DNA of 64,000 nt, taken from positions 558,001 to 622,000 of the forward strand of contig NZ_JAAMFJ010000001.1 in the NCBI RefSeq assembly GCF_018437235.1, read 5' to 3'. Positions 3,964-38,347 of the stretch are shown one piece after another. The translations under genes and the position numbers were made by a program. The stretch comes from Fructobacillus papyrifericola. Its GTDB lineage: Bacteria > Bacillota > Bacilli > Lactobacillales > Lactobacillaceae. The notes under the pieces are model-generated. The model was given only the letters and a program-made list of their open reading frames with translations. It made no database searches and was not told where the DNA came from. Positions within the stretch are counted from its first letter, which is position 1; each line of letters starts with the position of its first letter.

Positions 3964-3965
3964 GC

Positions 3966-4275: not shown

Positions 4276-4283
4276 ATGTGGAT

Positions 4284-5735: not shown

Positions 5736-5779
5736 GATGTGAGGGCTTTCGCCCACTCCTTTTTAGTTTTTACGTTTTG

Positions 5780-5827: not shown

Positions 5828-5839
5828 TCCCTTCTCCTT

Positions 5840-8800
5840 TTAAAAGTCGAAGAGCGACAGTTGGTTCTCATCTGGCAAGTCGGACACGACCGAGTGCAAA
5901 GTCAGGAAATCAATGATGGTTTGCGAGACTTTTCCACGCTTTTTCAAGTCTTCCTTGGAGATGAAGGGCTTTTCAGCCCGGGCGGCGACAATCTGGTTGG
6001 CAACGTTATCCCCAAGGCCAGGAATGGCGGAGAACGGTGGAATCAGTTCCTTACCGTCAATCACCCATTCCGTGGCCTCGGACCGTTCCAAGTCGACCAT
6101 CTTAAAGGAAATCCCTCGCTCCAGTGCTTCATTGGCCATTTCCAGCACCGTCTGCAAGTCCTGATCCCCCTTGGTGGCATCGTTTCCCAGGTCCTTAATT
6201 TTAGCAATCGCCGCCTTAACCGCTTCCTTACCACGGGCCATGGCGACAACGTCAAAGGCGTTGGCACGAACCGTGAAGTAAGTGGCGTAGTAGACGGCTG
6301 GGAAGTAAACCTTAAAGTAGGCAATTCGCAGGGCCATCAGAACGTAGGCGGCCGCGTGGGCCCGGGGGAACATGTATTTGATCTTCAGACAGGATTCGAT
6401 GTACCATTCCGGCACCTGGTGCTCACGCATCAAGGCCTGGTACTCATCTGTAATTCCCTTTCCCTTACGAACCTTTTCCATGATGTTAAAGGCGTCGGCA
6501 GCGGGCAGACCCCAGTTGATCAAATCGGTCATGATCTTATCACGGGTTCCAATCACGGTCGCAATCGTCGCCGTTCCATTTTCAACCAGGTCATGGGCGT
6601 TGCCCAACCACACATCGGTTCCGTGGGACAGACCAGAAATCTGAAGCAGTTCGGAATAGGTGTGCGGCTGCGTGTCTTCCAACATGTTTCGGACAAAGCC
6701 GGTACCAAATTCAGGCAGCCCGAGTGTTCCGGTATTGGAATAGATTTGATCGGGTGTGACCCCCAGCGGCTCGGTTGAGGTAAAGAGGTCCAAGACACCG
6801 GGATCGTTTGCCGGAATGGTCTGCGGATCAATGCCGGACAAATCCTTTAGGGTACGCACCATCGTCGGATCATCGTGACCCAGGATATCCATCTTCAACA
6901 GGTTATCGTGAATCGAGTGGTAATCCATGTGGGTCGTTTGCCAGAGGGCCGTTTGATCATCGGCCGGGTACTGCACCGGGGTAAAGTCGTAAATGTCGTA
7001 ATCGGCAGGCACGATCAAAATACCCCCGGGGTGCTGCCCGGTCGTTCGCTTCACACCGGTCACTCCCTGTGCCAAGCGTTCGACTTCGGCACCGCGGTAC
7101 TGCTTGTCATGGTCACGCTCATAGGCCTTTACGTAACCAAAGGCCGTTTTTTCGGCGACCGTGGCAATCGTTCCGGCACGGAAAACCTTCTTGACCCCGA
7201 ACATGACTTTCATGTAATCGTGGGCAATTGGCTGGTAGTCACCGGAGAAGTTCAAATCGATATCGGGTACCTTGTTCCCGGTGAAGCCCATGAAGGTTTC
7301 AAAGGGGATGTTGTGTCCATCCCCAATCAGTAATTCACCAGGATGGTTCGGATCTTCCTTGTCGGGCAAGTCATAACCGGACCCGTATTCCTTGGGATCA
7401 GCCAGTTCGAAGTAGTCCCCGTGAGCCGACCGGTAGTGCGGTGGCAGCGGGTTGACTTCAGTAATTCCAGACATGGTGGCCACAAAGGAGGAACCAACCG
7501 AACCACGGGAACCAACCAGGTAGCCGTCCTTGTTGGACTTGGCTACTAAGCGTTGCGAAATCATATAGTGCGGTGCGAAACCGTTTCCAATGATGGACTT
7601 CAATTCCTTATCGATTCGTTCCTGAATCACTTCAGGCAGTGGATCACCATAGGCCTTCTTAGCCGCCGTCAACGTCTTTTCCCGCAGTTCGTCACCGGCT
7701 TCAGGAATCTGTGGTGGGTAAGACCCCTCCTTCAGTGGCTGAATGTCTTCTAACATGTCGGCCACCTTGTGGGTGTTGTCGATCACCACTTGCTTGGCCT
7801 TGTCTTCACCAAGAAAAGTAAACTCATCCAAGAGCTCCTGGGTCGTGCGGAAGTGCACCTTTGGCAGGGCCTGGCGGTTTAGTGGATTACCGGGTTGTGA
7901 ACCAATCAAGATATCACGGTAAATGTGGTCTTCGGGATTCGTATACTTGACATCCCCCGTCACTACAACCGGCTTATCCATCTCTTCGCCAAGCTTGACC
8001 ATGTCAGCCAAAATCTTCTTTAGCTTGTTCGGTCCAGCAATCAACTCCGAATCCAACATGGGCTGGTAGTTTGGTAGTGGTTGAATCTCAATGTAATCGT
8101 AAAAGTCGGCCTTCTTCTTAGCCGCCGCATAGCCCTTTTCAATCAAAGTCACAATCAAATCGCCCGAGGTATCCCCGGAACCAATGATTAACCCATCACG
8201 GAACTTATTTAGGACCGAACGCGGAATGCGCGGCACTTTGTTGAAGTAGGAAACGTTTGACTCGGAGACCAGCCGGTACATGTTTTTCAAGCCGGTTGGG
8301 TTTTGAATCAAAAGCGAGGCGTGGAAAGGTCTTCCGTGCCGCCAAGCACCACCGTCTAGCATATGGTCGTTTAGCTGGTTTAGATTGTCGAGATCAAAGC
8401 GCTGCTTCGCCTCTTTAATCAGCTTCCAACCCAAGTGACCGGTGGTTTCGGCATCGTAGATGGCCCGGTGGGCCTGCTCCAATTCGATGCCAAACTTCTT
8501 AGCCAAGGTTCCCAGACGATATGACTTGTAGTCTGGATAGAGCCAACGGGTAAAGGGCAAGGTATCGATGACCGGCTCTTCAATCGGCCCCTCGTCGTAA
8601 CGCGCATAGGTGGCGTTCATGAAGTCCACATCGAAAGTCACGTTGTGACCAATCAAGACAGAACCCGCAATCCACTTGCGGAAGTTGTCGATGACGTCTT
8701 TTTCCGGCTTGGCATCGGCCACCATGGCGTCGGTAATCGAGGTCAGGTTGGTCGTGAATTCAGAGAGCGGAAAGCCTGGATTGATGTACTCGGAGTACTT

Positions 8801-10153
8801 ATCAATGACGTTACCCATCTGCATTTTGACGGCCGACAATTCAATGATTCGGTCGGAAACGGCCGAAAGACCGGTCGTTTCCAAATCGAAGGCGACGTAG
8901 GTCAGTTCCTTATCGGCCAGTTCCTGATCACGGGTGTTATAGGCAATTGGGTCCCCGTCTTCAACGACGTTGGCCTCCATTCCGTAAAGAATCTTAATAC
9001 CGTTTTTCTGGCCAGCCGCAATCGCCTGTGGATAACCCTGCACATTTCCGGTATCCATCACCGTCAGGGCTTCCTGTCCCCAAGAACTAGCCAGCTTAGC
9101 GACTTTGCCAAAGTCCGTGACCGCATCCATGCCCGTCATGTTCGTGTGGGCGTGAAGCTCAATCCGCTTTTCTTCCCCCTCATAGGGCTCTTGCCGGTCC
9201 TGGTGGTCGACGACTTGCAGGTCGTAAATGTTCAAGACAAGCTCACGGGCGTAGGTGTCTTCCTGCACGTTTCCGCGAGCCTTAATCCAGCAGCCGGCCT
9301 TCAACTGCTCAAAGACCGCCTCGTCTTGTTCGTTATTGGAAAACTTCTTGGCCGAAATCGAAGACGAATAATCCGTAATTTTCAAAGTCAGCAGCTGCCG
9401 CTTGGACCGCAGCACCCGAACCTCGTCAGCAAAGACATAACCTTCGATAACGACCCGGGATTCTTCCCCGTCAATCTCTGACAAGCGCGTAATTTCAGTA
9501 TCGGGATTAATGGCCCGACCGAGGCGCAGGGCGACCCCGTCAGAAGACTTCTTCGGTGCCGCCTTCTGGGCCCGTTCGATAGCCTGGTTAATGTTTTGCT
9601 GGACCTGTTCTTGGTGGGAGGCGAAGCTTTCCTGCAGCTTTTGCTGCTGTCCTTCGTCCAAGACCGCCGTGAAAGTCAAATTGGCCAAACCAAAGCATTC
9701 GTAAACCTGACGCAACTTTTCCAAGATATCCTTGGTCAAGGCAGCCGCCAAAGTCGGCGCCGCCGTTGCGATGGTCACCTGCTGACCGTCCGTTAAGCGA
9801 ACCGATGAGGCCGAGGCCAACTGTTGCACAATGGCGTAGTTCAACCCCGTTTGCTTTAAGGCGAAGTGGAAGTAGGCCTGAACGTCCTCCTCCCCAAAGC
9901 CGGCCTCCTTTGGCTGAATGGTCAAGTAAACGGCCTTGACCTGCTTAAAATTGGCAACCAAGCCCTGATAAAAGGCTAGATAAGCCGCAAAGGAGAGCGC
10001 TCGATTTGTTTCGACCACAAAGCGCCAGGACTTTTCTTCCGGATTGACCTGCACCGCTTTCAAAGTCGCGTCGGACAGGACCGCCTGCAGTTCTTCCGGC
10101 AATTCGGCCTGCATCATTAATTTTTCTAATTGTTCTCTTGAACTAAGAGGCAT
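5840..10153 (-). CDS. polC: DNA polymerase III PolC-type alpha subunit
   Basis: Main replicative polymerase of Firmicutes with built-in proofreading. At 1437 residues it has the usual PolC length. Order of domains: N-terminal region and OB fold (about 1-325); PHP domain starting at RIELHAHTNMTGMD near 333; the DnaQ-like exonuclease inserted into it (FDLETTGLS near 420, GHNVTFDVDFM and the final HRAIYDAETTGHL); then the polymerase core with VGSRGSVGSSFV, the catalytic VPDIDLNFSGDYQ near 965 and the HHH-type EKPFISKEDLKKR region near the end. ATG start with AGGAAGG four bases before. A terminator separates it from the upstream proS. Confidence 0.98.
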   Translation of the reverse strand: MPLSSREQLEKLMMQAELPEELQAVLSDATLKAVQVNPEEKSWRFVVETNRALSFAAYLAFYQGLVANFKQVKAVYLTIQPKEAGFGEEDVQAYFHFALKQTGLNYAIVQQLASASSVRLTDGQQVTIATAAPTLAAALTKDILEKLRQVYECFGLANLTFTAVLDEGQQQKLQESFASHQEQVQQNINQAIERAQKAAPKKSSDGVALRLGRAINPDTEITRLSEIDGEESRVVIEGYVFADEVRVLRSKRQLLTLKITDYSSSISAKKFSNNEQDEAVFEQLKAGCWIKARGNVQEDTYARELVLNIYDLQVVDHQDRQEPYEGEEKRIELHAHTNMTGMDAVTDFGKVAKLASSWGQEALTVMDTGNVQGYPQAIAAGQKNGIKILYGMEANVVEDGDPIAYNTRDQELADKELTYVAFDLETTGLSAVSDRIIELSAVKMQMGNVIDKYSEYINPGFPLSEFTTNLTSITDAMVADAKPEKDVIDNFRKWIAGSVLIGHNVTFDVDFMNATYARYDEGPIEEPVIDTLPFTRWLYPDYKSYRLGTLAKKFGIELEQAHRAIYDAETTGHLGWKLIKEAKQRFDLDNLNQLNDHMLDGGAWRHGRPFHASLLIQNPTGLKNMYRLVSESNVSYFNKVPRIPRSVLNKFRDGLIIGSGDTSGDLIVTLIEKGYAAAKKKADFYDYIEIQPLPNYQPMLDSELIAGPNKLKKILADMVKLGEEMDKPVVVTGDVKYTNPEDHIYRDILIGSQPGNPLNRQALPKVHFRTTQELLDEFTFLGEDKAKQVVIDNTHKVADMLEDIQPLKEGSYPPQIPEAGDELREKTLTAAKKAYGDPLPEVIQERIDKELKSIIGNGFAPHYMISQRLVAKSNKDGYLVGSRGSVGSSFVATMSGITEVNPLPPHYRSAHGDYFELADPKEYGSGYDLPDKEDPNHPGELLIGDGHNIPFETFMGFTGNKVPDIDLNFSGDYQPIAHDYMKVMFGVKKVFRAGTIATVAEKTAFGYVKAYERDHDKQYRGAEVERLAQGVTGVKRTTGQHPGGILIVPADYDIYDFTPVQYPADDQTALWQTTHMDYHSIHDNLLKMDILGHDDPTMVRTLKDLSGIDPQTIPANDPGVLDLFTSTEPLGVTPDQIYSNTGTLGLPEFGTGFVRNMLEDTQPHTYSELLQISGLSHGTDVWLGNAHDLVENGTATIATVIGTRDKIMTDLINWGLPAADAFNIMEKVRKGKGITDEYQALMREHQVPEWYIESCLKIKYMFPRAHAAAYVLMALRIAYFKVYFPAVYYATYFTVRANAFDVVAMARGKEAVKAAIAKIKDLGNDATKGDQDLQTVLEMANEALERGISFKMVDLERSEATEWVIDGKELIPPFSAIPGLGDNVANQIVAARAEKPFISKEDLKKRGKVSQTIIDFLTLHSVVSDLPDENQLSLFDF

Positions 10154-10176
10154 GGTACCTTCCTAATGGAAAAGGC

Positions 10177-10203
10177 AAAAAGCCGACCGCTGTCGACTTT
10201 TTT
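10177..10203 (-). terminator. intrinsic terminator between proS and polC
   Basis: On the minus strand AAAAGTCGAC pairs with GTCGGCTTTT (one T-G wobble) around a four-base loop, followed by T bases. It lies between the proS stop and the polC start. Confidence 0.75.
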
Positions 10204-10209
10204 CTCTTC

Positions 10210-11925
10210 TTACTTTTGCAACCAGTCGTTCAGTTTAGCAGCCACTTCGCTTGCAGGCATTTCAAAGTTTTCGCCACTTTCACGCAGCGTCACTTCAACA
10301 ATGCCCTCACTGGCCTTCTTTCCAACCGTGATGCGAACTGGCAAACCAATCAAGTCAGCATCGGCAAACTTCACGCCCGCCCGTTCCTTACGGTCATCAA
10401 CCAGGCTTTCAAAGCCGGCCTTGGCCACTTGCTCTTCCAATTCAGCAGCCACGTTGGCCTGGTCATCATCCTTCAAATTAATCGGTACGATGTGAACGTC
10501 GTATGGCGCAATTGCAGCGGGCCATACCAAGCCCTTCTCATCGGCCTTCTGTTCGGAAACAGCAGCCAACAAGCGGGAAATACCGATTCCGTAACTACCC
10601 ATGATCATGTCAACGGCTCGACCGTTTTGGTCCAGCACTTGCGCACCCAGGGCCTTGGAATACTTCGTTCCCAACTTAAAGATGTGGCCGATTTCAATTC
10701 CCTTGGTAAAGGCCAACTTACCCTTACCGTCAACGGCTAAGGCCCCTTCCTTGGCTGTTCGGAAATCACCAACTTGTTCATCCTTCAAGGCGACATCGCG
10801 GTCCCAGTTCACGTTCAGGTAGTGCTTGCCGTCTTCGTTTGCACCGGCGGCAAAGTTAACCAAGTCGGCCGCCCGTTCATCAACCAAGAGCTGCACGTCT
10901 TCTGGCAAGCCAACGGGTCCAAGGGAACCAAAGGAAGCACCCAGCTTTTCCTTGACCAAACCTTCGTCGGCCAACTCCACTTCGGGGACACCCAAGCGGT
11001 TTTGCACCTTGACCAAGTTGACTTCAACGTCACCGGTCGTCACAACGGCCGTCAGCTGCCCTTCCGGATCGGCTACGACAATCGTCTTCACCAACTGGTC
11101 GGCCGGCAGATCTAGCAAAGCCGACAATTCATCAATGGTTTTAGCATTTGGCGTGTCAATCTTTTCAATATCCGCCTTTTTCTCAGCAGAACGATCCACC
11201 CGTTCGTAAAAGTCCGAGGCCATTTCCAAGTTGGCGGCGTAGTCAGACCCTTCCGAGTAAACAATCGTGTCTTCGCCGGCGGCTGCTGGTGCGGAGAATT
11301 CCTTGGAATCGGAACCACCCATGGCACCGGCATCCCCAACGATTACCCGGTAATCCAGGCCAATCCGGTCAAAGATGTTCCGGTAGGCAACTTCCATTTG
11401 GTCAAAAATCTGATCCAAGCCTTCGTAATCCGCCGTAAAGGAGTAGGCATCCTTCATGATGAACTCACGGGTCCGCAAAAGACCGAAACGGGGACGGCCC
11501 TCGTCACGGAACTTGGCCTGAATTTGGTAAACCAACAAAGGCAACTTCTTGTAGGACTTGATATCGTTTCCAATCAATTCCGTGAAGGTTTCTTCGTGGG
11601 TTGGGCCCAAGATAAAGTCACGTTCCTGACGGTTCTTAAACTTGTACAAGTCCTGGCCGTAGGTTGCATAACGGCCGGAACGCTGCCAGAGTTCGGCTGG
11701 CAAAATTTCGGGTACCAGCATTTCGTTGGCGTTGACCGCTTCCATTTCCTCGCGGACAATCGCTTCGACTTTGTTCAAGACGCGCTTGGCCAATGGCAAG
11801 TAGGCAAAGGCACCGGCGGAAACGGGGCGAATGTAGCCGGCCTTTAACAGGTACTGGTGGGACTTAACTTCCGCATCGGCTGGCACTTCGCGGAGGGTTG
11901 GCATAAAGAGCTTACTTTGTTTCAT
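10210..11925 (-). CDS. proS: prolyl-tRNA synthetase (bacterial type with editing domain)
   Basis: Charges tRNA-Pro with proline. The 571 residues match bacterial-type ProRS with the YbaK-like editing insertion (about 230-390, DQLVKTIVVADPEGQLTAVV and neighbouring sequence). Class II motif 2 appears as FRDEGRPRFGLLRTREF near 140, motif 3 as IMGSYGIGISRLLAA near 445, and the anticodon-binding domain follows (VHIVPINLKDDDQAN onward). Start MKQSKLFMPTLREVP is typical. ATG preceded by GAAAGAAGGA. Upstream rseP ends 52 bases away. No T-box leader is visible. Confidence 0.98.
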   Translation of the reverse strand: MKQSKLFMPTLREVPADAEVKSHQYLLKAGYIRPVSAGAFAYLPLAKRVLNKVEAIVREEMEAVNANEMLVPEILPAELWQRSGRYATYGQDLYKFKNRQERDFILGPTHEETFTELIGNDIKSYKKLPLLVYQIQAKFRDEGRPRFGLLRTREFIMKDAYSFTADYEGLDQIFDQMEVAYRNIFDRIGLDYRVIVGDAGAMGGSDSKEFSAPAAAGEDTIVYSEGSDYAANLEMASDFYERVDRSAEKKADIEKIDTPNAKTIDELSALLDLPADQLVKTIVVADPEGQLTAVVTTGDVEVNLVKVQNRLGVPEVELADEGLVKEKLGASFGSLGPVGLPEDVQLLVDERAADLVNFAAGANEDGKHYLNVNWDRDVALKDEQVGDFRTAKEGALAVDGKGKLAFTKGIEIGHIFKLGTKYSKALGAQVLDQNGRAVDMIMGSYGIGISRLLAAVSEQKADEKGLVWPAAIAPYDVHIVPINLKDDDQANVAAELEEQVAKAGFESLVDDRKERAGVKFADADLIGLPVRITVGKKASEGIVEVTLRESGENFEMPASEVAAKLNDWLQK

Positions 11926-19272: not shown

Positions 19273-19417
19273 TTTATCGTAAACTTAAAGGTCGTCGTGC
19301 CTTGGACTACTATTACCAGCAGCACTTGGCATGGACAGGTCTAAGACCCCGAGATTACTTGGTTCGACGGCCATTACCTGCCGGGCCGTGGACTGCTCAT
19401 CAAAGAAGACCCGTTCA

Positions 19418-20299
19418 TTACCAAAGGAAACCCAGCGGTTTCGCACATTGTCTGGCGTTAACATGGTCGTCACATCGGTCGGCCGGTGTAATTCGCGTTG
19501 CGTAGTTACCAAGCGAATTGGACGAACTAACAATGCCCACAACCTGGTTCACCCGATTCAGGATTGGGCCACCGGAACTACCGTGGGCCCAGTTAACCTG
19601 CTGAGTGGCAATTTGATTGGTCGAAATACTTTCAGCAAGACCCGTATCAACATACATGCTATCGTTTTCGTTTTCAGGCTCGGTCATGCTTCCGGGTCCC
19701 AAAGTCGCCGGGAAGCCAATTGCTGAAATAGGCTCTGAGGCGATGTCTTCTGCCCGCAACTCACCCAGTGGCAGCACCTCGGCGTTTTCAACCGGCCGGC
19801 TCAGGTGAATTAAGGCCAAGTCGTGGTCACCCGGATCAGCCCCCGGTGCGTTGGGTACCAGGGCATCTCGCAAGTACGCAGGCGAAATTGAAATCGAGGC
19901 CCCACGGTAGTGCTGGCCAAATGGATAACGTTCACCCATCGAACCCGTTTCGCCCCCGTAGGCCGGTTCGATGGTCAAGTCACGTGGATTCCCGATTCGG
20001 GTTGGCCAGTCGTCTGGGTCGCCGCCCTGTCGGTTACTCATGACTACGTGAGCAGCCGTTAAGACGGTGTCCGGTCCAATCAAAACACCAGAACCCGATT
20101 CGCCGGTCTGCCGATTGATAATCAAAACGACCGATGAGAACGGAGCCTGTCGTGTGTTTGGCACCCGCCCCTTTTGAAACTTCACCGGATTAAAAACGTA
20201 GGCGTCGGCTTTGGGACTGACCGCAAAGCCAGCAGACAGGACCGTCGCCCCCACCAAAGTCACCTTTACTAAAGACTGAAACTTCTTTCCTTTTACCAT
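19418..20299 (-). CDS. secreted V8-like/trypsin-fold serine protease, probably frameshifted at the C-terminus
   Basis: Exported serine endopeptidase of the S1B (V8/glutamyl endopeptidase-like) group. A signal peptide fills about residues 1-33 (basic start, then LVKVTLVGATVLSAGFAVS, ending PKADAY). The catalytic triad is complete: His in VLTAAHVV near 82, Asp in HDLALIHL near 155 and Ser in GSSGGPIL near 250. After NYATRITPAD the frame leaves the family pattern and stops at 19418. The adjacent frame continues as DVTTMLTPDNVRNRW and runs to 19285. Removing one C from the CGACCG run near 19473-19480 would join them (ITPAD-DVTTML). So the intact protein would be about 338 residues, the annotated one 293. 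AAAGGAGG ribosome site, ATG start. Confidence 0.85.
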   Translation of the reverse strand: MVKGKKFQSLVKVTLVGATVLSAGFAVSPKADAYVFNPVKFQKGRVPNTRQAPFSSVVLIINRQTGESGSGVLIGPDTVLTAAHVVMSNRQGGDPDDWPTRIGNPRDLTIEPAYGGETGSMGERYPFGQHYRGASISISPAYLRDALVPNAPGADPGDHDLALIHLSRPVENAEVLPLGELRAEDIASEPISAIGFPATLGPGSMTEPENENDSMYVDTGLAESISTNQIATQQVNWAHGSSGGPILNRVNQVVGIVSSSNSLGNYATRITPADRCDDHVNARQCAKPLGFLW

Positions 20300-26234: not shown

Positions 26235-27728
26235 TTAGCGATTCATCCGCTTTTCCACGAAGCCAAGGGCCCGGGAAATGGAGAAGGTCAAAACGAAGTA
26301 AATCAACGAGGTGATCATCAGCGGTACGAAAGGTTCAAAGGAAGCCCCCTGAACAACGGACGTTTCGTACATCAGTTCACCAACACCGATCACCGAGATC
26401 ACCGAACCTTCCTTGATAACCGAAACAAATTCGTTTCCAAGGGCCGGTAAAATCGTCCGAACGGCCTGTGGCAGGATGACCAGGCGCATGGTCTTGTTCT
26501 TAGTAAAGCCAAGCGAACGGGCGGCTTCCATCTGGCCGTTATCAACGGATTCGATACCAGAACGAATGATTTCAGCCACGTAGGCAGCCGAGTTCAGCCC
26601 CATGGCAAGGGCCCCGGAGGCAAAGGCCGAGAGGTTCAAGCCAAGCACCTGGGCCCCGAAGAAGACCATGAAGGCCTGAACCAGCAGAGGCGTGCCACGG
26701 ACGTATTCAACGTAGATGTTTCCAATGGCCTTCAAGAAGAAGTTCGATGACAGTTTGAGCAAGGCAAAGACCGTACCCAGCGTCGTTCCAATCAAAACGG
26801 CCACAACGGCCAAGGCCAAGGTAATCAAGGTTCCAGACACGAAGTAGTGCCCGTACTTATCCCAGTAGGACTTGTTTTCGTTAGCAAACATTTCCTTGTT
26901 GGCTTGCTTTTGCCACTTTGAAAAAGTCCCGTCGGTCGTGACTTTATCAACAACGCTGTTCACCTTAGCCAAAAGGGCCGGTGAATTCTTCGGTACGGCA
27001 ACGGCCGAAGCCCCCGTCGTGTCCTCTGAAAAGCCGGGATTTACAACGGCAAACTGCTTGTTTTGCTCGGCATAGGCGTCGGCAATTGGCTTTTCCGTGA
27101 CAATCCCGGCCAAGACGCCCTGCGTCAGCTGGGAAATCAAGTTCGGATATTTTTGCAGGGAAACAACCGAAGCACCATCGATGCTTTTGGCGGTTTCTTC
27201 TTGAATCGTCTGCGTTTGCGCCCCGACTTTTTGACCGGAAAGCTTGTCTAAGCTGTTGTATTTAGTCGCGTTCTTCTTCAAGACCAGCATCGTCTGCGGT
27301 GCCTTCAAGTAGACCTTTGAAAAGTCCACCTGCTGCTCGCGCTCCTCGTTGGCTGTAAAGCCGGAAACAATCATGTCAATCTTGCCCGTCTTCAAGGAAC
27401 CGAGCAGGGCGTCAAAGCCCATGTCCTTGACTTCGAGCTTAACGTTTAGCTTCTTAGCAATCGCCTGGGCCAGGGAAATGTCGAAGCCGACAATCTTATC
27501 TTGCCCGTTTTTTTGCGTGTGGAATTCATAGGGGGCGTAATCGGCCGACAGACCAACCACCAGCTTGCCCCGCTTTTCAATTTTTTCTAAAGTCGGATCG
27601 GTCTCAGCCGCCGAAGCCTGCTTAGCGGCTGCTAGCGGTGCTAAGACCAGGGAAAAGAAGAGCGTGACCAAGGCCAAGAGGCTGAGCCACTTCTTCTTTT
27701 GACCGTTTTTCATTTGATAAGTACACAT
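26235..27728 (-). CDS. glnP: glutamine-type ABC transporter: substrate-binding domain fused to permease (GlnHP)
   Basis: One 497-residue chain combines an extracytoplasmic amino-acid binding domain and a permease, as in lactococcal GlnP but with a single binding domain. A hydrophobic signal helix fills about residues 10-35 (LSLLALVTLFFSLVLAPLAA). The family 3 solute-binding domain follows (LVVGLSADYAPYEF, VGFDISLAQAIAKKL, VSGFTANEEREQQVDFS). The C-terminal HisM/ArtQ-type permease has YVEYVRGTPLLVQAF and the EAARSLGFTKNKTMRLVILPQ coupling loop (EAA motif; cited in part). The ATG at 27728 lies eight bases after AAAGGA. No ATPase gene is next to it, so GlnQ must be encoded elsewhere. Glutamine or glutamate is the likely substrate. 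Confidence 0.92.
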   Translation of the reverse strand: MCTYQMKNGQKKKWLSLLALVTLFFSLVLAPLAAAKQASAAETDPTLEKIEKRGKLVVGLSADYAPYEFHTQKNGQDKIVGFDISLAQAIAKKLNVKLEVKDMGFDALLGSLKTGKIDMIVSGFTANEEREQQVDFSKVYLKAPQTMLVLKKNATKYNSLDKLSGQKVGAQTQTIQEETAKSIDGASVVSLQKYPNLISQLTQGVLAGIVTEKPIADAYAEQNKQFAVVNPGFSEDTTGASAVAVPKNSPALLAKVNSVVDKVTTDGTFSKWQKQANKEMFANENKSYWDKYGHYFVSGTLITLALAVVAVLIGTTLGTVFALLKLSSNFFLKAIGNIYVEYVRGTPLLVQAFMVFFGAQVLGLNLSAFASGALAMGLNSAAYVAEIIRSGIESVDNGQMEAARSLGFTKNKTMRLVILPQAVRTILPALGNEFVSVIKEGSVISVIGVGELMYETSVVQGASFEPFVPLMITSLIYFVLTFSISRALGFVEKRMNR

Positions 27729-27940
27729 TGCAAACATCCTTTATGGGTTCTGCTTTTAACTTATCTATTATACAAAATAACCGGTCCTTTGTCTGCCCGT
27801 TCAGTGGATTTCAGGCCCTTTCCGGAATTTTTCGGGATGAAAAACAATCTTTGGTTCTTTTCTGAATCCCTTGCTGGCCATTTTTTTGATCACGTCTTGG
27901 CTCACCTCTTTATACGATGACCCGCTGACTTTTCCACACG

Positions 27941-28005: not shown

Positions 28006-30786
28006 TTAACGATCATCATCCTTCTTTTTGCGACCAATCAAGAAGAACCAGAAGCCTGCGGCGGCAAGGCCGGCAGTTCCGATGGTTTCAAAGAGTCCCC
28101 GACTTTTAGCAGTCGTACTCTCTAAGTTCTTCGTTGATTTCTTTGACTTCTTCTTCGTTGCCTTTTCAGGCGTCTGAAGGTCCTCTGTCTGGTCGACTGG
28201 TGTTGCTTCAATGGTTGCCGTTCCGGCTTCGTTTGCAGCGGGTCCGCCAACGTTTTGGCTGTTGGGGAGCACCCCAGCGTCAGATGTTACAACCGGAGCT
28301 GTAGTTGCCACAACTCGTTCTTCTTGAACGGTTGACTTGGCATCACGGATAGTCACAATGGCTTCTCGCCCATTGTTTTCTGCTTCCTCAATGACGACTT
28401 TCTTAGCAGCATGGTTTACAGCGGATTTGGCTTGTTCGGCCGCGCCATCAATTTGAACCTTCTTAGCCTGCTTGGCTTTATCGGAAAGCTGGTCGTTTTG
28501 ATCAACGGCTTGCTTGGCCTTTTGCGCAGTTTCATCGATAGCAGCATGGGCTGCCTTCTTCTGCTCGTTCAAATGGTCAATGACCGCTGCACCCGTCGAC
28601 TGGGCATCGTCGATGGCTGGCTTGGTTGATGAACGATTAATCTCACCCTTGGCGGCTTTGGCCGCTTCGTCAATCGCAGCCTTTTGATCTTGCTTAACTT
28701 GATCAGAAAGGCTTGCATCCTGCTCCAGCCTATCCTTGGCCTTCTTAGCCGATTCATCAACTACTTCATGGGCCTGCTTCTTTTGATCGTGCAGGTGCTC
28801 AATGCCATCTTGGCCAGCCTGCTTTGATTGGTCAACGCCACTTTGGTCAACGGCCTGGTCCACCTTGGACTTAGCAGCCTGGGCGGCTTCGTCGATGGCC
28901 GTCTTTTGGGCTGCCTTTGAAGAAGCGTCCAAGTCGTTGTTCTGCTCAACTTTATCCTTGGCCTTTTCTGCAGAATCCCTGATGGCGTCATGGGCCGACT
29001 TTTTCTGACCGTTTAGCTCATCAATAGCCGTCTTTGACTGGGCGGCTGAATCAGTCGCCATTGATCCGGTCTTTTCCTGATCAATGGCTGATTTTGCCTC
29101 GTCAGCTAAGTGATCAATGACTTGCTTCTGGTCCTTCTTGGACTGATCAGAGAGGTCTTTACTTCCATCAATTTCTTCCTTAGCCTTCTTTGCGGCTTCA
29201 TCGACGGTCTGATAAGCCTTTTGCTTATCGTGGTTCAGTTCATCAACGGCCTGTTTACCATGGTCAACTGACTGAGCAATTTCCTTCTCGTTTGGTGCTG
29301 CATCGACTTTTTCTTTAGCCTTGTCAGTCGACTCGTCAATGACCTGCTTTTGGTCATGCTTTCCTTGGTCGGACAAGTGCTGATCTTCATCAACCGACTG
29401 CTTGGCCTGCTTAGCAATCTCATCCAAGTGATCGTAGGCGGCCTTCTTTTGGTCGTTAAGCTGATCGATGGCTGTTTCACCCTTCGTCACAGCCTGATCA
29501 ATATCCGTGGCCTTATTGGCCCGGTTAATCTCAGACTTGGCCGCCTTAGCAGCTTCGTCAACAGCCTTTTCTTGTGCAGCCTTTGCCTGATCGGAAAGTC
29601 CGGCATCGGAAGAAATAGCACTCTTTGCAGCCTGGGCCGCTTGATCGATGGTCGCCCTTGCCTTTTCCTTCTTTTCAGTCAACCCATTGATTTGATCTTG
29701 ACCGGCTTGCGAAGCTTTTTGAACGTCCTCGGCATTCTTGGCCGAATCAATCTCAGACTTGGCTGAAGCAGCGGATTCATCAATTGAATCGCGATGTTGC
29801 TTCTTTGCCTCGTCATCGAGCTTGCCATCCTGATCAACGGCTTGCTTGGCCTTCGAAGCGGAATCAGTAATTGCCTGATAGGCAGCATCCTTTTTACCGT
29901 TTAAGTCATCAAGAGCGGATTGACCCTGATTACTTGCCTCGTCAATCGACTCTTGGTTCGTTTGCTGATCGACGACTTGTTTAGCAGCAGTTGCTGCTTG
30001 GTCGACGGCCTTTTGACGGGCCTCTTTGGCATCATCCGAAAGACCGGCTGTGTCCGTTACGGTCTGCTTGGCTTGTTCGGCAGCAGCATCGATTTTCTTA
30101 TAAGCCGCGTCCTTTTGACCATTCAAATTATCAATTGCAGTCGTAGCAGCATTTTCTGCCTGTTGAACGGCTTCCTTCGTTGATGACGTATCAACAGTCT
30201 GCTTGGCTTGTTCGGCAGCACGGTCAATGGCTTTCTGTTGCGCCTCCTTGGCTTCCTCTGAAAGGCCCTTTCCTTCTAAGGCTTCCTTTGCCTTGTTAGC
30301 GGAATTGGTGATTTTCTCATAAGCGGCGTCTTTTTGTCCGTTTAGGGCATCAAGAGCAGCTTGACCATCATGACTGGCACTTTCAATATCCTGCTGGTTC
30401 GTTTGCTGATCGATGACCGTCTTGGCAGCTGCTGCTGCTTGTTCCACGGCCTTCTGACGAGCCTCTTTTGCAGCATCCGACAAGCCGGCAGCTTCACTGG
30501 CAGTCTGCTTGGCCTTAGCTGCTGCGTCGTCGATACCCTTGTAAGCCACATCCTTTTGACCATTCAAATCATCAATGGCTTTGGTAACAGCACTTTCGGC
30601 TTCTTGAACGGCATCTTTCGTGGAAGAACGGTCAACCGTCTGCTTAGCCTTATCGGCCGCATTATCAATGGCAGTCTGTTGCGCAGCCTTCGCCTCTTTG
30701 GAAAGGTCAGTGTTTGCCTCCACGGCCTTTTTAGCCTTTTCCACGGAATCAGTAATTGCTTGATAAGCCGTGTCCTTTTGAAACAT
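28006..30786 (-). pseudogene. C-terminal half of the large repetitive surface protein, out of frame with its N-terminal half
   Basis: This frame has no ribosome site and continues the upstream surface gene in the +1 frame. It holds about 11 three-helix repeats of some 74 residues, class B, marked by LNGQKDAAY-type starts and rich in Ala, Lys, Asp and Gln with almost no aromatic or Cys residues. This is DUF1542-like architecture seen in wall-bound adhesins. After the repeats comes a Thr/Pro/Lys-rich stalk (TPEKATKKKSKKSTKNLES). A C-terminal hydrophobic helix (TIGTAGLAAAGFWFFLIG) and RKKKDDDR tail complete it. No LPxTG-like sortase motif precedes the helix. Deleting one T at about 30784-30786 would give the reading DDDHV-QKDTAY and restore one protein of roughly 2,430 residues. 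Confidence 0.75.
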
Positions 30787-33700
30787 GATCGTCATCAATC
30801 GTCTGCTTACCGGACTTAAAGTCACTGTTGACCGTATCCTGATCGTTGGCCTGGTCAATTTGACCCTCGGCCGTTGCCAGGTCGGCCTTGACCTGGCTGA
30901 CTTGCTTTTCCTTTTCAGCCGCCGTCAAGCTGACATCCCCATTAATAGCATCAATGATGCGCTGGGCTTCAGCCTCCAAGTTACTCTTTTGCAGGTTCTT
31001 TTGATCGGGCAGTGGCTTACCAGGAACGTAATCGTTATCAATGGCCGTCTTGCCACTGTTAAAGGCCGTCGTGATGTCATCGGCGTCCGTGGCCTGGTCA
31101 ATGGCGTTATCCCAGGTCGTTTCGTCGGCATTGACTTGGGCAATCTGGGCGTTTTTCGTCGTTGTCGACAAGGTGTTGTCAGCATTGATTTCAGCAATAA
31201 TCTTGGCCGCTTCATTGGCCAGTAACTGCTTTTGATTCTTCTTTTGGTCGGCAACCGAAGTGCCCGCCTTGTGATCAGCATCGATGGCCGCAAGACCGGC
31301 TGACAAGTCAGTCTTCACGCTATCAGCATTGCCATCGGCGTCAATTTTGGCTTCGGCAGCGTTCTTATCGGTCGTGACCTGATTGGTCTGAGCCGTCTTT
31401 TGAGCGGTCGTCAGGCTGCTGTCGTTTTGGATGGCGTTAATGACCTTCTTGGCCTCGTCTTCCAGTTGTTGCTTGGCGGCAGCCTTTTGACTGGCCAAGG
31501 AGGCACCGGGCACGTGGTCGTTGTCAATGGCTTGAATGCCGTTTGACTCTTGATTTTGAATGCCATCGGCATCGCTGGCTGCATCAATGGCGTCATCAGC
31601 CGTCTTCTGGCTGGCTTTAACATTGGCCACCTGCTTTGACTTGTCAGCGGCCGTTAGGGTGCTGTCGTCGTTAATGGCGGCAATGACTTTGGCGGCTTCG
31701 GCATCAACGGCGGCCTTGGCTTCCTTCTTTTGCTGATCGAGCGACTCACCTGGCGCATAATCAGAAGCAATGGCTGCCTTTCCGTCTTTCACGGCGTTGT
31801 TAATGCCGTCGGCATCGGAAGCCTTATTAATGTTATCGATGGCCGCTTGCTTGTCGGCGTTGACCCGGTCGATTTGCTTTTGCTTTTCGGCAGCGGGAAT
31901 CGTCGGATCGTTGTTAATGCCGGCAATCGCCTTCTGAGCATCCCCATCCAGGGCCTGCTTAGCAGCATCATCAATGGCCTTTTGGGCCGCCTTCTTCTGG
32001 TTGGCAATGGAATCGCCCGGCACGTGGTCGTTGTCCATTGCGCTGACCCCGTTGGTCAAGGAAGTCGAAATGGCATCGGCCGTTCCACTGTTATTCACGT
32101 TATTAATGGCGGACTGCAGGTCGTTATTGACCCAGCCCTCCTGCTTTTGTCGATCGGCTGTATCCAAAGTCTTGTCGGCTTCAATGGCGGCATCGACTTT
32201 GGCCGCTTCGGCCTTCAATTTGTTAATGGCAGCCGTCCGTTGCTGGTCCAGCGATTGACCGGCCGTGTGGTCCGCGTCAATCTTTGCGATGCCAGTCGTC
32301 ATAGCCGATTGAATGGCGTCCTTATTAGCTGCTTGATCAATGTTTTGATCAGCCGCCTGTTGGTCGGCTTTGACCTTGGCCACTTGACTGGCCTTAGCGT
32401 CAACAGAAAGCGTGTTGTCCCCGTTAATCACACCAATCAATTTGTTGGCTTCGGCATCAACACTGGCTTTGGCCGCCTGCTTCTGCTGGTCGAGTGGCGT
32501 ACCTAGTACATGATCGTTGTCAATGTTTTGAATGCCGTTTGTCACAGCGGTCTGAATGCCATCGGCACTGGTGGCGTTATCAATGTTTTGATCAGCCGTC
32601 TGGTCGTCAGCTTGGGCGGCGGCAATCTGGCTGTTTTGATCGCTTTGTGAAAGGGTACCGTCGGCTTTAATGGCCGCAATGATCTTGGCCTCTTCAGCAT
32701 CGACTTTTGCCTTGGCCTGTGTCTTGGCGTCCTTCAATGGCGTTCCTGGCTGGTAAGCCTGATCAATCGTCTGCTTACCAGAGGAAAGCGTGCTGTTGAC
32801 GGCATCGGCGTTTTCAGCGGAATCAATATTTTTCTCCGCCGTCGTCAAAGCGCCCTGGGCCTGAGCAATTTCAGCCGCTTTCTGATTGGTCGTCAAAGTC
32901 GAATCGCCGTTAATCTGAGCTTCAACCCGGCGCTCCTCGGCCTCCAAGGAAAGCTTTGCCGCACTCTTCTGGTCGGCCAAGTCGGTTCCCGGTTGGTGAA
33001 CCCCGTTTATTTGATTAATCCCGGCATCCCGACTGCTATTAATGCCATCGGCGTTGGTTCCGGCATCGATGCTGTTATCCGCATTGGTTCGGTCGGTTTC
33101 GACTTGGGCTAGCTGGGTCGCTTTTTGATCCGTCGTCAAAGTAACGTCATTGTTAATGGCGTTCTTTGCTGCTGCAGCGGCCGCATCCACGGCCGCCTTG
33201 GCCTTTGTTTTCTGATTTTGAATGCTGTCGCCAGGCTTGTAATCACTATCGACTTTGGCAAAGCCAGCATCTCGGGAACTATTGACGCCATCGGCGTTCG
33301 TCGCATTATCGATGTTTTGATCGGCCTGAGCCTGATCCTGGGTAATGGCAGCCGTCTGTGCGGACTTTTGCGTGCTGGTCAGGGTGTTATCCCCGTTGAT
33401 TTCGTTGATGAGCTTCTGGGCCTCGTCATCGACGACTTTTTTAGCCGCCTTCTTCTGGCTATCCAGACTGACACCGGCAGTGTGATCGCCATCAATGGCC
33501 GTTATGCCATTGCCCTTAGCCGTGCTAATGCTATCGGCATCGCTTGCTTGGTCAATGGCATTCTTGGCATCGGTCACCGATTGTGTGACTTTGGCCAATT
33601 CCGCGGACTTTTGTCCTGAGGTCAGGGTGTTGTCATTGTTAATGGCGTTGTTAATGGTGTTGGCTTCGGCATCAATGGCCGCCTTGGCCTTTGATTTCTG

Positions 33701-35317
33701 ATCGGGTAGTGGATCGCCAGGCACGTGGGCGCCGTCAATGGACGAGATGCCGTTGATCGTTTGACTGTTAATATCATCGGCATCACTAGCCGCATCAATG
33801 TTGTCATCGGCGGTTTTCAAATCCGAATTAACCGCATCAATCTGGGTCTTTCGCACCGTTTCTGGCAGGGTCGGATCGTTTTTGATGTCCGACAGGATCT
33901 TCTGTGCCTCCGCTGCGGCTTTGGCCTTAGCGGCTGCTTTCTGGTTAGCAATGCTGTCACCAGGCACATAGTCGCTTGAAAAGTCAGTCTGACCATCGGC
34001 CTGCGCATCATCGGCCGTCTGGTCCTGATTAATCTTGTTATCCAAACGGTTCTGATCGTTCTGCACGGCTTGAACCTGTTGGTCTTTAGCTGCCTGTGTC
34101 AGGGTGTTATCGCCCTTGATTTCGTTAATGAGCTTTTGCGCCAACGCATCAATTTTGGCCTTGGCAGCCGTTTTAACAGCGTCCAAGTCCCCCTTGGTGT
34201 AATCAGCATCAATGGCTGACTTACCGGCGGCGGTATCGCTGTTCATGTCGTCCATGTCGCTGTCGCCGTTGACCTTGTTGGTGTAAGTGGTCAGGTCGGC
34301 GTTAACTTTGGCAATTTGACTGTTGCGATCGGTGGTCGTCAGTCCATCATCGGCCTTTATTTCTGCAATCACCTTATCGGCTTCGCTCTGCAGAGAAGCG
34401 GTCAAATCGCTCTTCAGCTTCTTCACGTCAACACCGGGCGTGTTTCCAAGGTTGATGATATTGGTCTTGGCCGCATCCCCATCCGTATTGACGTCATCTT
34501 GGGTAAAGTCGGCCTTCATCTTATTGATTCCAGCATTGAAAGCGGCATCGATTTGATTATCGAGGTCGTTCTTTTGGGCCTTGGTTAGCCCTTCGTTGTT
34601 AGCAATTTGTTTCTTAGCGTCAGAAACTGCTTGTTGCAATTGGATCAGTTTCGTCTTCTTGGCAGTATCGGAACCTGCAACCTTCTTGCGGTACGAAGGA
34701 ATATCGATATTGTTGACTTGATCTTGTGTTCTAAAATCAACAAAGTTAAAGTGGTAGGTTTGCCCGTTCCAAACCAAATAGAACTGAGCGCCCTTGTAAT
34801 AATTGTTGGCCAATGTCCAGTTGGTATAAGTACCAGACAGAGTATAAGTATGGTCCCCACCATGCGGTCCAAAATCAGGATTCCAGTGGAAAACAATTGG
34901 CGGGTAGCCCTTTGTTTGACTAATTAGAAAGTGGGTCTGGCTCTGTTCAAAATCTCCAACTAACTGGCCATTGTCACCCAGGTGAACGTAAACATGGGTA
35001 AAGGCAATCGTCAGAGTTTGACCATTCGAGGTCAAAATCTGCTGGGCAGGAAGGTCCATTTGTTGTCCAATAACCGCATCCTCAATGGAATCGAAGGTCA
35101 CCGTCGTCCCGTAAATCGTGCCCGTGTAGGGAACTTTTAAGTTCGCATCACTGATGTCATCGGCGTCGGCTTCCGTGTCGACCTCCTGTCCCGGTGCACC
35201 TGGAATATTAATCATCGAGGTCACGGCTGCTATTCCCGATATCAAAGCAAAGCCCATTAGATCCGCCTCAATCCAACGTTTACCTGCTTTATACATTTTC
35301 TTGTGTTCTTTTGACAT
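30749..35317 (-). CDS. N-terminal half of a giant KxYKxGKxW-signal surface protein with DUF1542-like repeats
   Basis: Exported repetitive surface protein, 1522 residues in this frame. The N-terminus carries the KxYKxGKxW signal (KMYKAGKRW, residues 7-15, followed by a hydrophobic stretch to about 36), used by accessory Sec or glycosylated LAB adhesins. A unique domain of about 150 residues follows (VPYTGTIYGTTVTFDS to YHFNFVDFRTQDQ). Then come roughly 16 class A repeats of about 76 residues, each ending IDxDHxPGxSLxxQK. The frame ends 18 codons after the sixteenth repeat has begun its linker (QTIDDDHVSKGHGL), where a +1 shift enters the class B half. Ribosome site GAGGG seven bases before the ATG; promoter TAAACA-17-TATATT with TGC upstream. 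Likely role: adhesion or biofilm. Confidence 0.85.
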   Translation of the reverse strand: MSKEHKKMYKAGKRWIEADLMGFALISGIAAVTSMINIPGAPGQEVDTEADADDISDANLKVPYTGTIYGTTVTFDSIEDAVIGQQMDLPAQQILTSNGQTLTIAFTHVYVHLGDNGQLVGDFEQSQTHFLISQTKGYPPIVFHWNPDFGPHGGDHTYTLSGTYTNWTLANNYYKGAQFYLVWNGQTYHFNFVDFRTQDQVNNIDIPSYRKKVAGSDTAKKTKLIQLQQAVSDAKKQIANNEGLTKAQKNDLDNQIDAAFNAGINKMKADFTQDDVNTDGDAAKTNIINLGNTPGVDVKKLKSDLTASLQSEADKVIAEIKADDGLTTTDRNSQIAKVNADLTTYTNKVNGDSDMDDMNSDTAAGKSAIDADYTKGDLDAVKTAAKAKIDALAQKLINEIKGDNTLTQAAKDQQVQAVQNDQNRLDNKINQDQTADDAQADGQTDFSSDYVPGDSIANQKAAAKAKAAAEAQKILSDIKNDPTLPETVRKTQIDAVNSDLKTADDNIDAASDADDINSQTINGISSIDGAHVPGDPLPDQKSKAKAAIDAEANTINNAINNDNTLTSGQKSAELAKVTQSVTDAKNAIDQASDADSISTAKGNGITAIDGDHTAGVSLDSQKKAAKKVVDDEAQKLINEINGDNTLTSTQKSAQTAAITQDQAQADQNIDNATNADGVNSSRDAGFAKVDSDYKPGDSIQNQKTKAKAAVDAAAAAAKNAINNDVTLTTDQKATQLAQVETDRTNADNSIDAGTNADGINSSRDAGINQINGVHQPGTDLADQKSAAKLSLEAEERRVEAQINGDSTLTTNQKAAEIAQAQGALTTAEKNIDSAENADAVNSTLSSGKQTIDQAYQPGTPLKDAKTQAKAKVDAEEAKIIAAIKADGTLSQSDQNSQIAAAQADDQTADQNIDNATSADGIQTAVTNGIQNIDNDHVLGTPLDQQKQAAKASVDAEANKLIGVINGDNTLSVDAKASQVAKVKADQQAADQNIDQAANKDAIQSAMTTGIAKIDADHTAGQSLDQQRTAAINKLKAEAAKVDAAIEADKTLDTADRQKQEGWVNNDLQSAINNVNNSGTADAISTSLTNGVSAMDNDHVPGDSIANQKKAAQKAIDDAAKQALDGDAQKAIAGINNDPTIPAAEKQKQIDRVNADKQAAIDNINKASDADGINNAVKDGKAAIASDYAPGESLDQQKKEAKAAVDAEAAKVIAAINDDSTLTAADKSKQVANVKASQKTADDAIDAASDADGIQNQESNGIQAIDNDHVPGASLASQKAAAKQQLEDEAKKVINAIQNDSSLTTAQKTAQTNQVTTDKNAAEAKIDADGNADSVKTDLSAGLAAIDADHKAGTSVADQKKNQKQLLANEAAKIIAEINADNTLSTTTKNAQIAQVNADETTWDNAIDQATDADDITTAFNSGKTAIDNDYVPGKPLPDQKNLQKSNLEAEAQRIIDAINGDVSLTAAEKEKQVSQVKADLATAEGQIDQANDQDTVNSDFKSGKQTIDDDHVSKGHGLSSNY

Positions 35318-35452
35318 CACACTACCCTCTCTGAATCGTGCATTCTATGCCTTTAATATAGCACTAACAGGGCAAAATGTTTAGAATTATTCCAGTAATA
35401 ATTCAAGAGTTTAACAAAGCCTTTACAATTCAGAAAAACTTTGAAAATGCAC

Positions 35453-35494: not shown

Positions 35495-36802
35495 TTACAA
35501 AATCGTGATCAACAAACCACCCAAGATCAGGATGATGGCACCACCGATTCGGTTACCCATTTGGGCAAAGGCGATCAAGCCCATCCGGTTTGATGCTGAC
35601 AAAACAGCAACGTTACCAGTTCCACCCATTGAGTTGTTAATCATACCACCGGCGATGGCTGATTCAACAGGGTAAAGTCCGAAGAGCTTACCCAAGAATC
35701 CACCAGCGATACCGATCGTGATAACGGAAACGAATGAGCAAAGAACCAATTGCCAAGTAACCGTTTGGAGCAACTTGTTCATGTCAACAAGGGCCAAACC
35801 GATACCAGCCAACAAGGCAGGCGTCGTTGCGTACGTAATCATGTTACCAAACATGGCAGCTGATTCTTCGTAGAACTTTGGAACCAAGTTGAATCCCTTG
35901 GCCAAGATAACCAAGAGGATCATGAAGGCAAAGGCGTTAATCTTAGGAACGAAGTGGTAAAGCACGTTTCCCATCATGTAGAAGGAAAGGGCAACCATCA
36001 TACCGTTCATCAATTGACGGTTGTTAATTTCTGGCAAAGTCGTCTTCTTGATTTCCATGCCGTCAGTAGCCTTCAACAATTCACCTTGACCGTTCATCTT
36101 TGACTTAGTCGTGAACTTAACCAACAGTGATGAACCGATGATGGCCAACAAGTTGGCGATAACAACGGCTGGGAAGAGTTGGTTCAAGATGTCACCAGCT
36201 GACTGGTGCAAGGCACCGGCATAAGAAGCTGAAAGTGGCACGATTCCGGCACCAATTCCACCGGCCATCATTGGGAATGAAATGTACAAAGCGGCGTGCT
36301 TAAAGTCGTAGCCCAAAGCCATACCAACCAATGACGTCACGATGAAGGCAATGATCATCGCACCAAAGGCAACTGGCAAGAAACGAACAGCAGACTTCAA
36401 CAACAAGTCGCGGTCCATCTTCAAGATGGCTGAACAGATCAAAGCCACGATGTAGAATTCCAAAAAGTTGTTATCTGAGATGAAAGTCTTGATGTTCAAA
36501 ACTGCTGAATGAGGAACGAGTCCCATCGCAGTAAAGGCTGATCCAGCAACAACGGCCAAGGCAGACCCACCACCAAGGTAGGACTTCAAAATTGGCGTGT
36601 TGTTACCAACGAAGAAGAAGACTCCTCCGAGGATAACGAGGGCAAACAAAGCCCCACCCATGTTTTTAGGCATGGCGTTCAGGCCCAAGACGGCAACTAA
36701 GAGAAGCAGCATCAAGATAAAGGCTACTCCACCGATGTGTGTCACTTGAACTTTTTCTTCGATCTTTGCAAAAAGACCTTTTTCTGAAGTTTGTTCAGAC
36801 AT
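35495..36802 (-). CDS. 2-hydroxycarboxylate transporter (CitP/MleP/CitS family), copy 1
   Basis: Secondary transporter of about 435 residues for citrate, malate or lactate, of the 2HCT family. Eleven or so membrane segments are visible. Both GGxG re-entrant loop signatures are present: MMAGGIGAGIVPLSA near residue 190 and NNSMGGTGNVAVLSASNRMG near 400. The ATG at 36802 is six bases after AGGAG; upstream in-frame codons lack a site. It stands alone between two terminators. Its place next to the citrate lyase cluster suggests citrate or malate uptake, perhaps in exchange for lactate. Substrate cannot be read from the sequence. Confidence 0.93.
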   Translation of the reverse strand: MSEQTSEKGLFAKIEEKVQVTHIGGVAFILMLLLLVAVLGLNAMPKNMGGALFALVILGGVFFFVGNNTPILKSYLGGGSALAVVAGSAFTAMGLVPHSAVLNIKTFISDNNFLEFYIVALICSAILKMDRDLLLKSAVRFLPVAFGAMIIAFIVTSLVGMALGYDFKHAALYISFPMMAGGIGAGIVPLSASYAGALHQSAGDILNQLFPAVVIANLLAIIGSSLLVKFTTKSKMNGQGELLKATDGMEIKKTTLPEINNRQLMNGMMVALSFYMMGNVLYHFVPKINAFAFMILLVILAKGFNLVPKFYEESAAMFGNMITYATTPALLAGIGLALVDMNKLLQTVTWQLVLCSFVSVITIGIAGGFLGKLFGLYPVESAIAGGMINNSMGGTGNVAVLSASNRMGLIAFAQMGNRIGGAIILILGGLLITIL

Positions 36803-36916
36803 AGTACACTCCTGTATATCGATTTCTTGTAAATTAATACTAAGCCAGTATAACACCAAGATTAAATTAAATTAAGGCACATTTCCTTAAAATTGTTCGA
36901 TTATCAAAATAAATTC

Positions 36917-36943
36917 AAAAAAGAGGGCAAAGGCGCCCTCTTT
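36917..36943 (-). terminator. intrinsic terminator after the second 2HCT transporter
   Basis: AAAGAGGGC and GCCCTCTTTTTT, nine-base perfect arms with a six-base loop on the minus strand. Confidence 0.88.
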
Positions 36944-36982
36944 CCTCTTAATTTTTTCAACTTTCTTTTAAAATCACAAGTC

Positions 36983-38296
36983 CTATCCCCAGATAGTGAC
37001 AAGGATTCCGGCAATCACCAGAACAATCGCCCCACCGATTCGGTTCCCCATTTGGGCAAAGGCGATCAAGTTCATTCGGTTGGCCGCCGATAAGACCGCC
37101 ACGTTTCCGGTCCCACCCATTGAGTTGTTGGCTAGACCAGCCGTCACGGCCGTTTCAACAGGATAAAGGCCGAAGACTTTGCCCAAAAAGCCGGCAATAC
37201 CCATCATCGACAGAATCGAGACAATGACGCAGAGCACAAGCTGCCAGGACAGCGTCGAGACCAAAGCGGATAGATCAAGCAAGGTCAGCCCAACACCGGC
37301 TAACAAGGCGTGGGTCATCGTTTTCACGATCAGTTGGCCAAAGGCGACGGCCCCCTGTTCATAACGAGCTGGCAGAAGGCCGGCTGCCTTGACCACAACC
37401 GTCAGTAAAATCAGAAAGGCAAAGGCGTTGACGACCGGCAAGAGCTGGTGCAAGAGAAGGCCGAGCATGTAGAGGGCCAATGCGGTCATCATCCCAACCA
37501 AGACTTGCTCGGCTGAAAAGGATCCTTGAAAACCGGCCCCCTCTGTTGTACCAAAGCGTTCGCGTAAGAGCTTTCCCTGGCCGTTCCAGGGTGACTTTTC
37601 CGTATTTTTGACCAGCAGGCCGGCTGCGATAATGGCCAGCAAATTGGACAAGACCAGTGGTGGAAAGAGCTGGGATAAAATGGCCCCGGAAGGTTGTCCC
37701 AGAGCCGCCCCGTAGATTGATGACAGCGGAACGATGCCGGCCCCAACCCCACCGGCCATCATGGGAAAAGTCACGAAGAGGGCCGTGTGAAAGAAGCCCA
37801 GCCCAACCAGCTGGCCAACCAAGCTAACGACAAAGAAGGTCAAGGTCATTGTGAGAAAGGCGACCGGCAAGAAGCGGACGGTTGCCTTCAAGACCAAAGC
37901 CCGGTCCATTTTGAAGATGGCTGAGACAATCAGGGCGACAATGTAAAACTCCAAGAAGTTACTCGTCGTCAAAAAACTCTTAATGGTCGAAAGCGTTGAC
38001 GCCGGCACGTAACCCATGCCAGCCAGCAGGGCCGCGCCAATCGTGGTGAAGACCGAACCCCCACCAAAGTAGGTCCGAACAATTGGCAAGTGGCTGCCTA
38101 AATAGTAGAGCAGGCCACCCAGACTAACCATGGTAAAGATGGCCCCGGCCATGTTTTTAGGCAGGACTCGCAGGCCACCCATGCCGACGGCCAGGAGAAA
38201 GAGAAAGCAAAAGGCCAGGGCACCAAAACCGTCAATTGAGACCGCCTGCCTTTTTTTATACCAAACACCGATTCGATTCGAGCGATTCTTTGCCAT
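36983..38296 (-). CDS. 2-hydroxycarboxylate transporter (CitP/MleP/CitS family), copy 2
   Basis: Paralogue of the transporter just downstream, about 437 residues, with the same two signatures (MMAGGVGAGIVPLSS and NNSMGGTGNVAVLSAANRM). Middle loops differ clearly between the copies (for example KSPWNGQGKLLRERFG here against KSKMNGQGELLKATDG). The N-terminus is more basic (MAKNRSNRIGVWYKKRQ). The ATG at 38296 follows AGGAGG by five bases. Two divergent 2HCT carriers side by side suggest split duties, such as citrate/lactate exchange and malate uptake. It lies 51 bases after the alpha/beta hydrolase with no terminator between, so they may share a transcript. Confidence 0.93.
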   Translation of the reverse strand: MAKNRSNRIGVWYKKRQAVSIDGFGALAFCFLFLLAVGMGGLRVLPKNMAGAIFTMVSLGGLLYYLGSHLPIVRTYFGGGSVFTTIGAALLAGMGYVPASTLSTIKSFLTTSNFLEFYIVALIVSAIFKMDRALVLKATVRFLPVAFLTMTLTFFVVSLVGQLVGLGFFHTALFVTFPMMAGGVGAGIVPLSSIYGAALGQPSGAILSQLFPPLVLSNLLAIIAAGLLVKNTEKSPWNGQGKLLRERFGTTEGAGFQGSFSAEQVLVGMMTALALYMLGLLLHQLLPVVNAFAFLILLTVVVKAAGLLPARYEQGAVAFGQLIVKTMTHALLAGVGLTLLDLSALVSTLSWQLVLCVIVSILSMMGIAGFLGKVFGLYPVETAVTAGLANNSMGGTGNVAVLSAANRMNLIAFAQMGNRIGGAIVLVIAGILVTIWG

Positions 38297-38347
38297 ACAC
38301 GCCTCCTGTCGTCTAGATATATTTTTCACAAAACCATTATAGCAGCT

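Follow-up and report, generated by a model that had tools for sequence, protein, structure and literature searches.

A giant DUF1542-repeat surface-protein gene of Fructobacillus papyrifericola, probably a recent pseudogene, changes frame where its repeats change class

Described counterparts and the broken gene

Fructobacillus, the host of the gene described here, is a plant-dwelling lactic acid bacterium, and the very large surface protein Ebh of Staphylococcus aureus carries DUF1542-like repeats. Broken large surface genes have already been described in lactic acid bacteria, and the present case adds one. The LAB-Secretome paper (PMC3017865) reports that pseudogenes are numerous among the large mucus-binding genes of these bacteria, which its authors call striking and unlikely to be due to errors in every case. 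The likeness to our locus lies in the breakage of large surface genes, there mostly by frameshifts; the proteins themselves differ, those of the LAB-Secretome being mucus-binding proteins with MUB domains and the Fructobacillus protein a DUF1542 rod with a KxYKxGKxW signal. In S. aureus ET3-1 (PMC2040198) the very large surface gene ebh is interrupted and other surface genes carry premature stops; the authors regard random mutation as the probable origin of the pseudogenes in that strain. That ebh is mostly missing and is interrupted by a mobile element, however, whereas the Fructobacillus gene has undergone one small shift. The giant extracellular proteins of Apilactobacillus and Fructobacillus treated in PMC12863079 come, like ours, from fructophilic lactic acid bacteria and form helical-repeat rods. 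In the relevant part of that paper they have an N-terminal beta-solenoid domain, whereas the first 324 residues of our protein, as modelled (three-sequence alignment, mean pLDDT 68.6, residues 1-52 below 50), matched no PDB entry at E <= 0.001. The words 'frameshift' and 'pseudogene' are absent from the main text of that paper, and our literature search found no publication naming both Fructobacillus and KxYKxGKxW. DUF1542 and frameshift occur together in PMC6116112, in the pertinent passages of which the frameshifts concern other genes, and also in PMC3690210.

The window (64,000 nucleotides) lies on a 731,438-base contig of the F. papyrifericola M1-21 assembly, which comprises 1,296,716 bases in 9 contigs. 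On its minus strand a giant surface-protein gene is distributed over two frames (Table 1), represented by the ORFs 30749-35320(-) and 28006-30858(-); the gene starts at ATG 35317, and GTG 35320 is a mechanical ORF start only. The signal region scored 28.9 bits against PF19258 (cut-off 23.6) and 19.9 bits against TIGR03715 (cut-off 18). Pfam PF07564 recognized 16 DUF1542 stretches in the N-terminal frame (E 7.1e-94) and 10 in the C-terminal frame (E 4.8e-50), and a search with unit profiles returned 16 class A units, counted after one spurious 20-aa match had been removed by hand from 17 profile rows, and 11 class B units. With its tandem DUF1542 units and KxYKxGKxW signal the gene is classed as encoding a KxYKxGKxW-signal, DUF1542-repeat surface protein. 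These counts bear out an earlier sequence-only reading of the window, which had put the repeats at about 16 and about 11; the joined length of about 2,430 residues that it proposed agrees with our 1,512 + 924 codons. Beyond the switch, the N-terminal frame continues for 10 codons (SKGHGLSSNY) to a stop at 30749-30751, and all 924 codons of the C-terminal frame are free of stops. The C-terminal tail (window 28006-28200, minus strand) is anchor-like, with a hydrophobic stretch and lysines. No Pfam or NCBIfam anchor family was found on the C-terminal frame at E 0.1, and the tail was not assigned to the LPXTG sortase anchors; no signal family of either collection was found in this frame. ATG codons of the C-terminal frame sit 7 and 16 bases ahead of the switch, and no AGGAGG-like motif was seen by eye in front of them. 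Two separate genes were considered and rejected, the second frame having neither a start with a ribosome site nor a signal.

Table 1. Positions of the giant gene, its neighbours and the lesions recorded in the F. papyrifericola genome (window coordinates unless a locus is named)
Feature	Position	Strand	Content
N-terminal frame	30749..35317	-	KxYKxGKxW signal, predicted beta-rich N domain, 16 class A DUF1542 units, 10 out-of-register codons, stop
KxYKxGKxW-type signal peptide region	35216..35317	-	Pfam PF19258 E 1.1e-6; TIGR03715
Frame change	30776..30787	-	linker joining A16 to B1, with a short T3/A4 tract
C-terminal frame	28006..30780	-	11 class B DUF1542 units and hydrophobic, lysine-rich tail
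Downstream neighbour, amino-acid ABC transporter	26235..27737	-	Pfam SBP_bac_3 and BPD_transp_1
Upstream neighbours, two 2-hydroxycarboxylate transporters	35495..38329	-	Pfam 2HCT
Window giant gene, lesion	break ~30780	-	frame shift
L040 KxYKxGKxW/DUF1542 giant	4641-8116		frame shift
L041 KxYKxGKxW/DUF1542 giant	6291-10772		in-frame TAA
L073 Muc_B2-type gene	about 3173		frame shift
L075 giant DUF1542 surface gene	2600-10915 (C1 about 292.6-300.9 kb)		TAA at 2807, TAG at 5588
L078 TPP enzyme gene	about 2930-4749, break 3173 (C1 about 403 kb)		N-terminal Pfam domain divided between two frames
L073 amino-acid-permease-like gene (by eye)	about 5365-6825 (C1 about 267-269 kb)		in-frame TAG about 6170
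Trypsin-like peptidase gene (uncertain lesion)	19285-20263	-	apparent frame change at 19478, near 3' end

The break and the two classes of repeat unit

A frame model trained on the F. papyrifericola genome placed the switch at 30779/30780 with no non-coding gap and, together with the ORFs and their translations, confirmed, in place and in direction, the earlier proposal that the frame changes in the linker where the A units end and the B units begin. The net shift amounts to one base, beside T3 and A4 runs, and no homopolymer at the break is longer than 4; the whole gene contains a single homopolymer of six or more (A6) and a single (AGC)4, both away from the break. The break thus does not fit a slipped-strand phase-variable gene, showing T3/A4 and no long homopolymer or short tandem repeat. 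Read by eye at the DNA level, the join brings the end of an A-type linker against the start of a B-type linker out of register. Within the gene, the longest exact repeat that reaches into either 300-base flank of the break measures 19 bp, and the 201-base junction matches its own genome at just one further place, 36 bp at 86% within the same gene. The break and the A/B join are no more than about 10 bases apart, a closeness that by our own estimate a random indel would reach with a chance of roughly 0.2-0.8% and that favours a rearrangement scar, short of showing one.

The syntenic orthologue in F. papyriferae M1-10 (L037) is intact, a single frame of 2,710 aa that is colinear with the window gene at 57% identity across query residues 2-1520 and has a tail resembling that of the C-terminal frame. 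Since this relative has the gene whole and a shift at 30780 disrupts it here, the window gene is probably a pseudogene. Best matches between A units of the two species stand at equal index in 10 of the 16 cases, and an odd 89-residue unit 12 is common to both. The F. papyriferae array consists of 29 A units followed by one B-like unit in one frame; the B-like unit is 39% identical to B6 against 29% to the window's closest A unit, and B6 is the only B unit of which it is the best F. papyriferae match. The orthologue of F. broussonetiae M2-14 is also broken, at another place, and its passage from A to B units likewise runs in one frame. When the B units were compared by BLAST with all collected loci except the window and L001, the best match lay at the same locus of F. 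broussonetiae for 8 of the 11, with modest identities of 33-48%, and in loci of other genomes for B3, B7 and B11; against the two orthologues alone some margins were small, and B8 was closer to an F. papyriferae A unit. In both orthologues A units and B-like units follow one another in a single frame; from this, and from the eight matches, we infer one ancestral gene and not two fused ones. Array lengths of both classes differ across all three species, which would point to the gain and loss of units, and on these comparisons the change of class may most simply be regarded as the architecture of this locus.

The surroundings of the gene were compared by running Pfam on the window's own neighbours and likening the neighbours of the orthologues to them by eye. 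A similar ABC transporter gene lies directly downstream of the F. papyriferae giant, in F. broussonetiae with one gene in between, and 2HCT-like genes precede the orthologues, one in the F. papyriferae stretch examined and two in F. broussonetiae. In F. parabroussonetiae S1-1 two contig ends (L106 1-330 and L156 1-80) hold the orthologue's N-terminal part and its tail, and each of them also has a short segment that cannot be read as part of the gene, of the kind expected from an inserted repeat element.

Lesions in the surface genes of the strain and of the genus

We scanned 450,003 bases of the F. papyrifericola genome for frame switches and start-less in-frame stops and read the candidates by eye; the scan covered 394,466-397,066 coding bases and 398-401 coding segments of at least 60 aa, depending on which of two model trainings was used. 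Large surface genes numbered 12, made up of 10 PF19258 matches (two below the curated cut-off) together with the genes at L042 and L075. Five of them were broken and carried six lesions, three shifts and three in-frame stops (Table 1); the remaining seven count as unbroken in the sense that no break was flagged, not that each was compared with a relative. The L075 gene reads in one frame of about 2,770 codons with two in-frame stops. L041 contains exact repeats of 200 bases or more. Outside the surface genes there were at most three lesions among about 386 coding segments, including the uncertain one in the trypsin-like gene, the Pfam domain of which is complete ahead of the switch. Six of the nine lesions thus fell within 45.6 of 394 kb (P 1.5e-4, descriptive, the grouping having been made post hoc), and by gene the comparison was 5/12 vs 3/386 (Fisher P 5e-7, likewise descriptive, with both surface class and lesion list set post hoc); the gene lengths used in these statistics were entered by hand. 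The excess of lesions in surface genes argues for real inactivation over uniform sequencing error.

The survey of the genus covered the stretches around KxYKxGKxW genes in eight other genomes, in which the frame model was read by eye with no homology check of each case; G011 F. fructosus, in which stretches read N, and G002, G005 and G006 were left out. On this by-eye reading, surface-type genes were broken in 6 of the 9 genomes scored, F. papyrifericola included. The breaks lie in Fructobacillus sp. KI3_B9 (G001; L092), F. broussonetiae (G004; L038 and L105), G007 (L126), F. parabroussonetiae (G009; L111) and G012 (L137, L138, L139, L142, L144 and L146, some genes several times). No surface-gene break was judged present in F. 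papyriferae (G003) or G010, with 0 events flagged in each, nor in G008, where all three flagged events were read as ordinary gene starts. It could be imagined that selection favours the repeated and independent inactivation of giant rods in Fructobacillus species through point lesions, which would diversify the cell surface by slow on/off changes, with broken alleles stable beside intact ones in populations and array recombination breaking and restoring frames; we regard this as doubtful.

Explanations of the break

On the comparisons of sequence given above, we consider it probable that a single ancestral gene for a giant rod-shaped surface protein lost its frame recently in the F. papyrifericola M1-21 lineage and is now a recent pseudogene. 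The ancestral order would have been signal, N domain, class A DUF1542 array, class B array and C-terminal tail, and the break most likely makes an ordinary pseudogene and not a new mechanism. Of the two forms in which the sequence-only reading had offered a one-base indel, the loss of function is supported by the intact orthologue and by the five broken surface genes; the switchable form is opposed by a break offering T3/A4 only. The product would be a secreted protein of at most ~1,520 residues that lacks the C-terminal tail. The second half, with no signal and no usable start of its own, would stay unexported. Since the 924 downstream codons hold no stop, the break would be recent, with divergence since the break of less than about 2.4% under neutrality. 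The lesion itself may have been a small indel that fell in the linker, or it may be the scar of a rearrangement in the repeat array by which an A linker and a B linker came together out of register. One such join would change frame and repeat class at one place, and the break may thus be a scar left by recombination where A meets B, possibly formed inside the single gene; the loss or gain of one base in the linker fits equally well.

That the living strain's gene is whole, and that its repeats led to a wrong base call or a wrong assembly, seems unlikely. The assembly is a draft, the net change is one base beside short T and A runs, and some ordinary genes of the same assembly look broken too, but the lesions cluster in surface genes, where three of the six are in-frame stops and not shifts, and F. 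papyriferae M1-10, published together with M1-21 according to the reference list of PMC9934391, gave 0 events in 90,787 bases. The near uniqueness of the junction and the 19-bp limit on nearby exact repeats speak against the repeat misassembly that had been suggested earlier; a plain base-call error may still lie behind the break. We think it very improbable that some cells regain the long protein through a functional switch or bypass, be it slipped-strand phase variation, transcriptional slippage or programmed frameshifting. The downstream frame has stayed open, and strand-slipping was raised for broken mucus-binding genes by the LAB-Secretome authors (PMC3017865), but no run at the break exceeds 4 and the gene has only an A6 elsewhere. 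The breaks of the other genes, moreover, differ in context and some are stops; no slippery motif was recognised at the break, and the frame change, absent in F. papyriferae and placed elsewhere in F. broussonetiae, does not show the pattern of a programmed frameshift. Hardly credible, finally, is the fusion of two paralogous repeat genes out of frame by recombination, which had also been put forward. Third-position GC is unequal between the arrays (0.604 in A vs 0.489 in B), and A units 17-29 of F. papyriferae occupy the place of the window gene's B units; against this, B-like units and tail are native to the locus in the relatives, and the closest other match of the C-terminal (B) frame in its own genome is 32% identical.

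The reading that we prefer, inactivation of a formerly continuous gene, suggests that several giant adhesins of strain M1-21 would be non-functional. It is relevant to the annotation and comparison of Fructobacillus surface proteins and to inferring adhesion from gene content.
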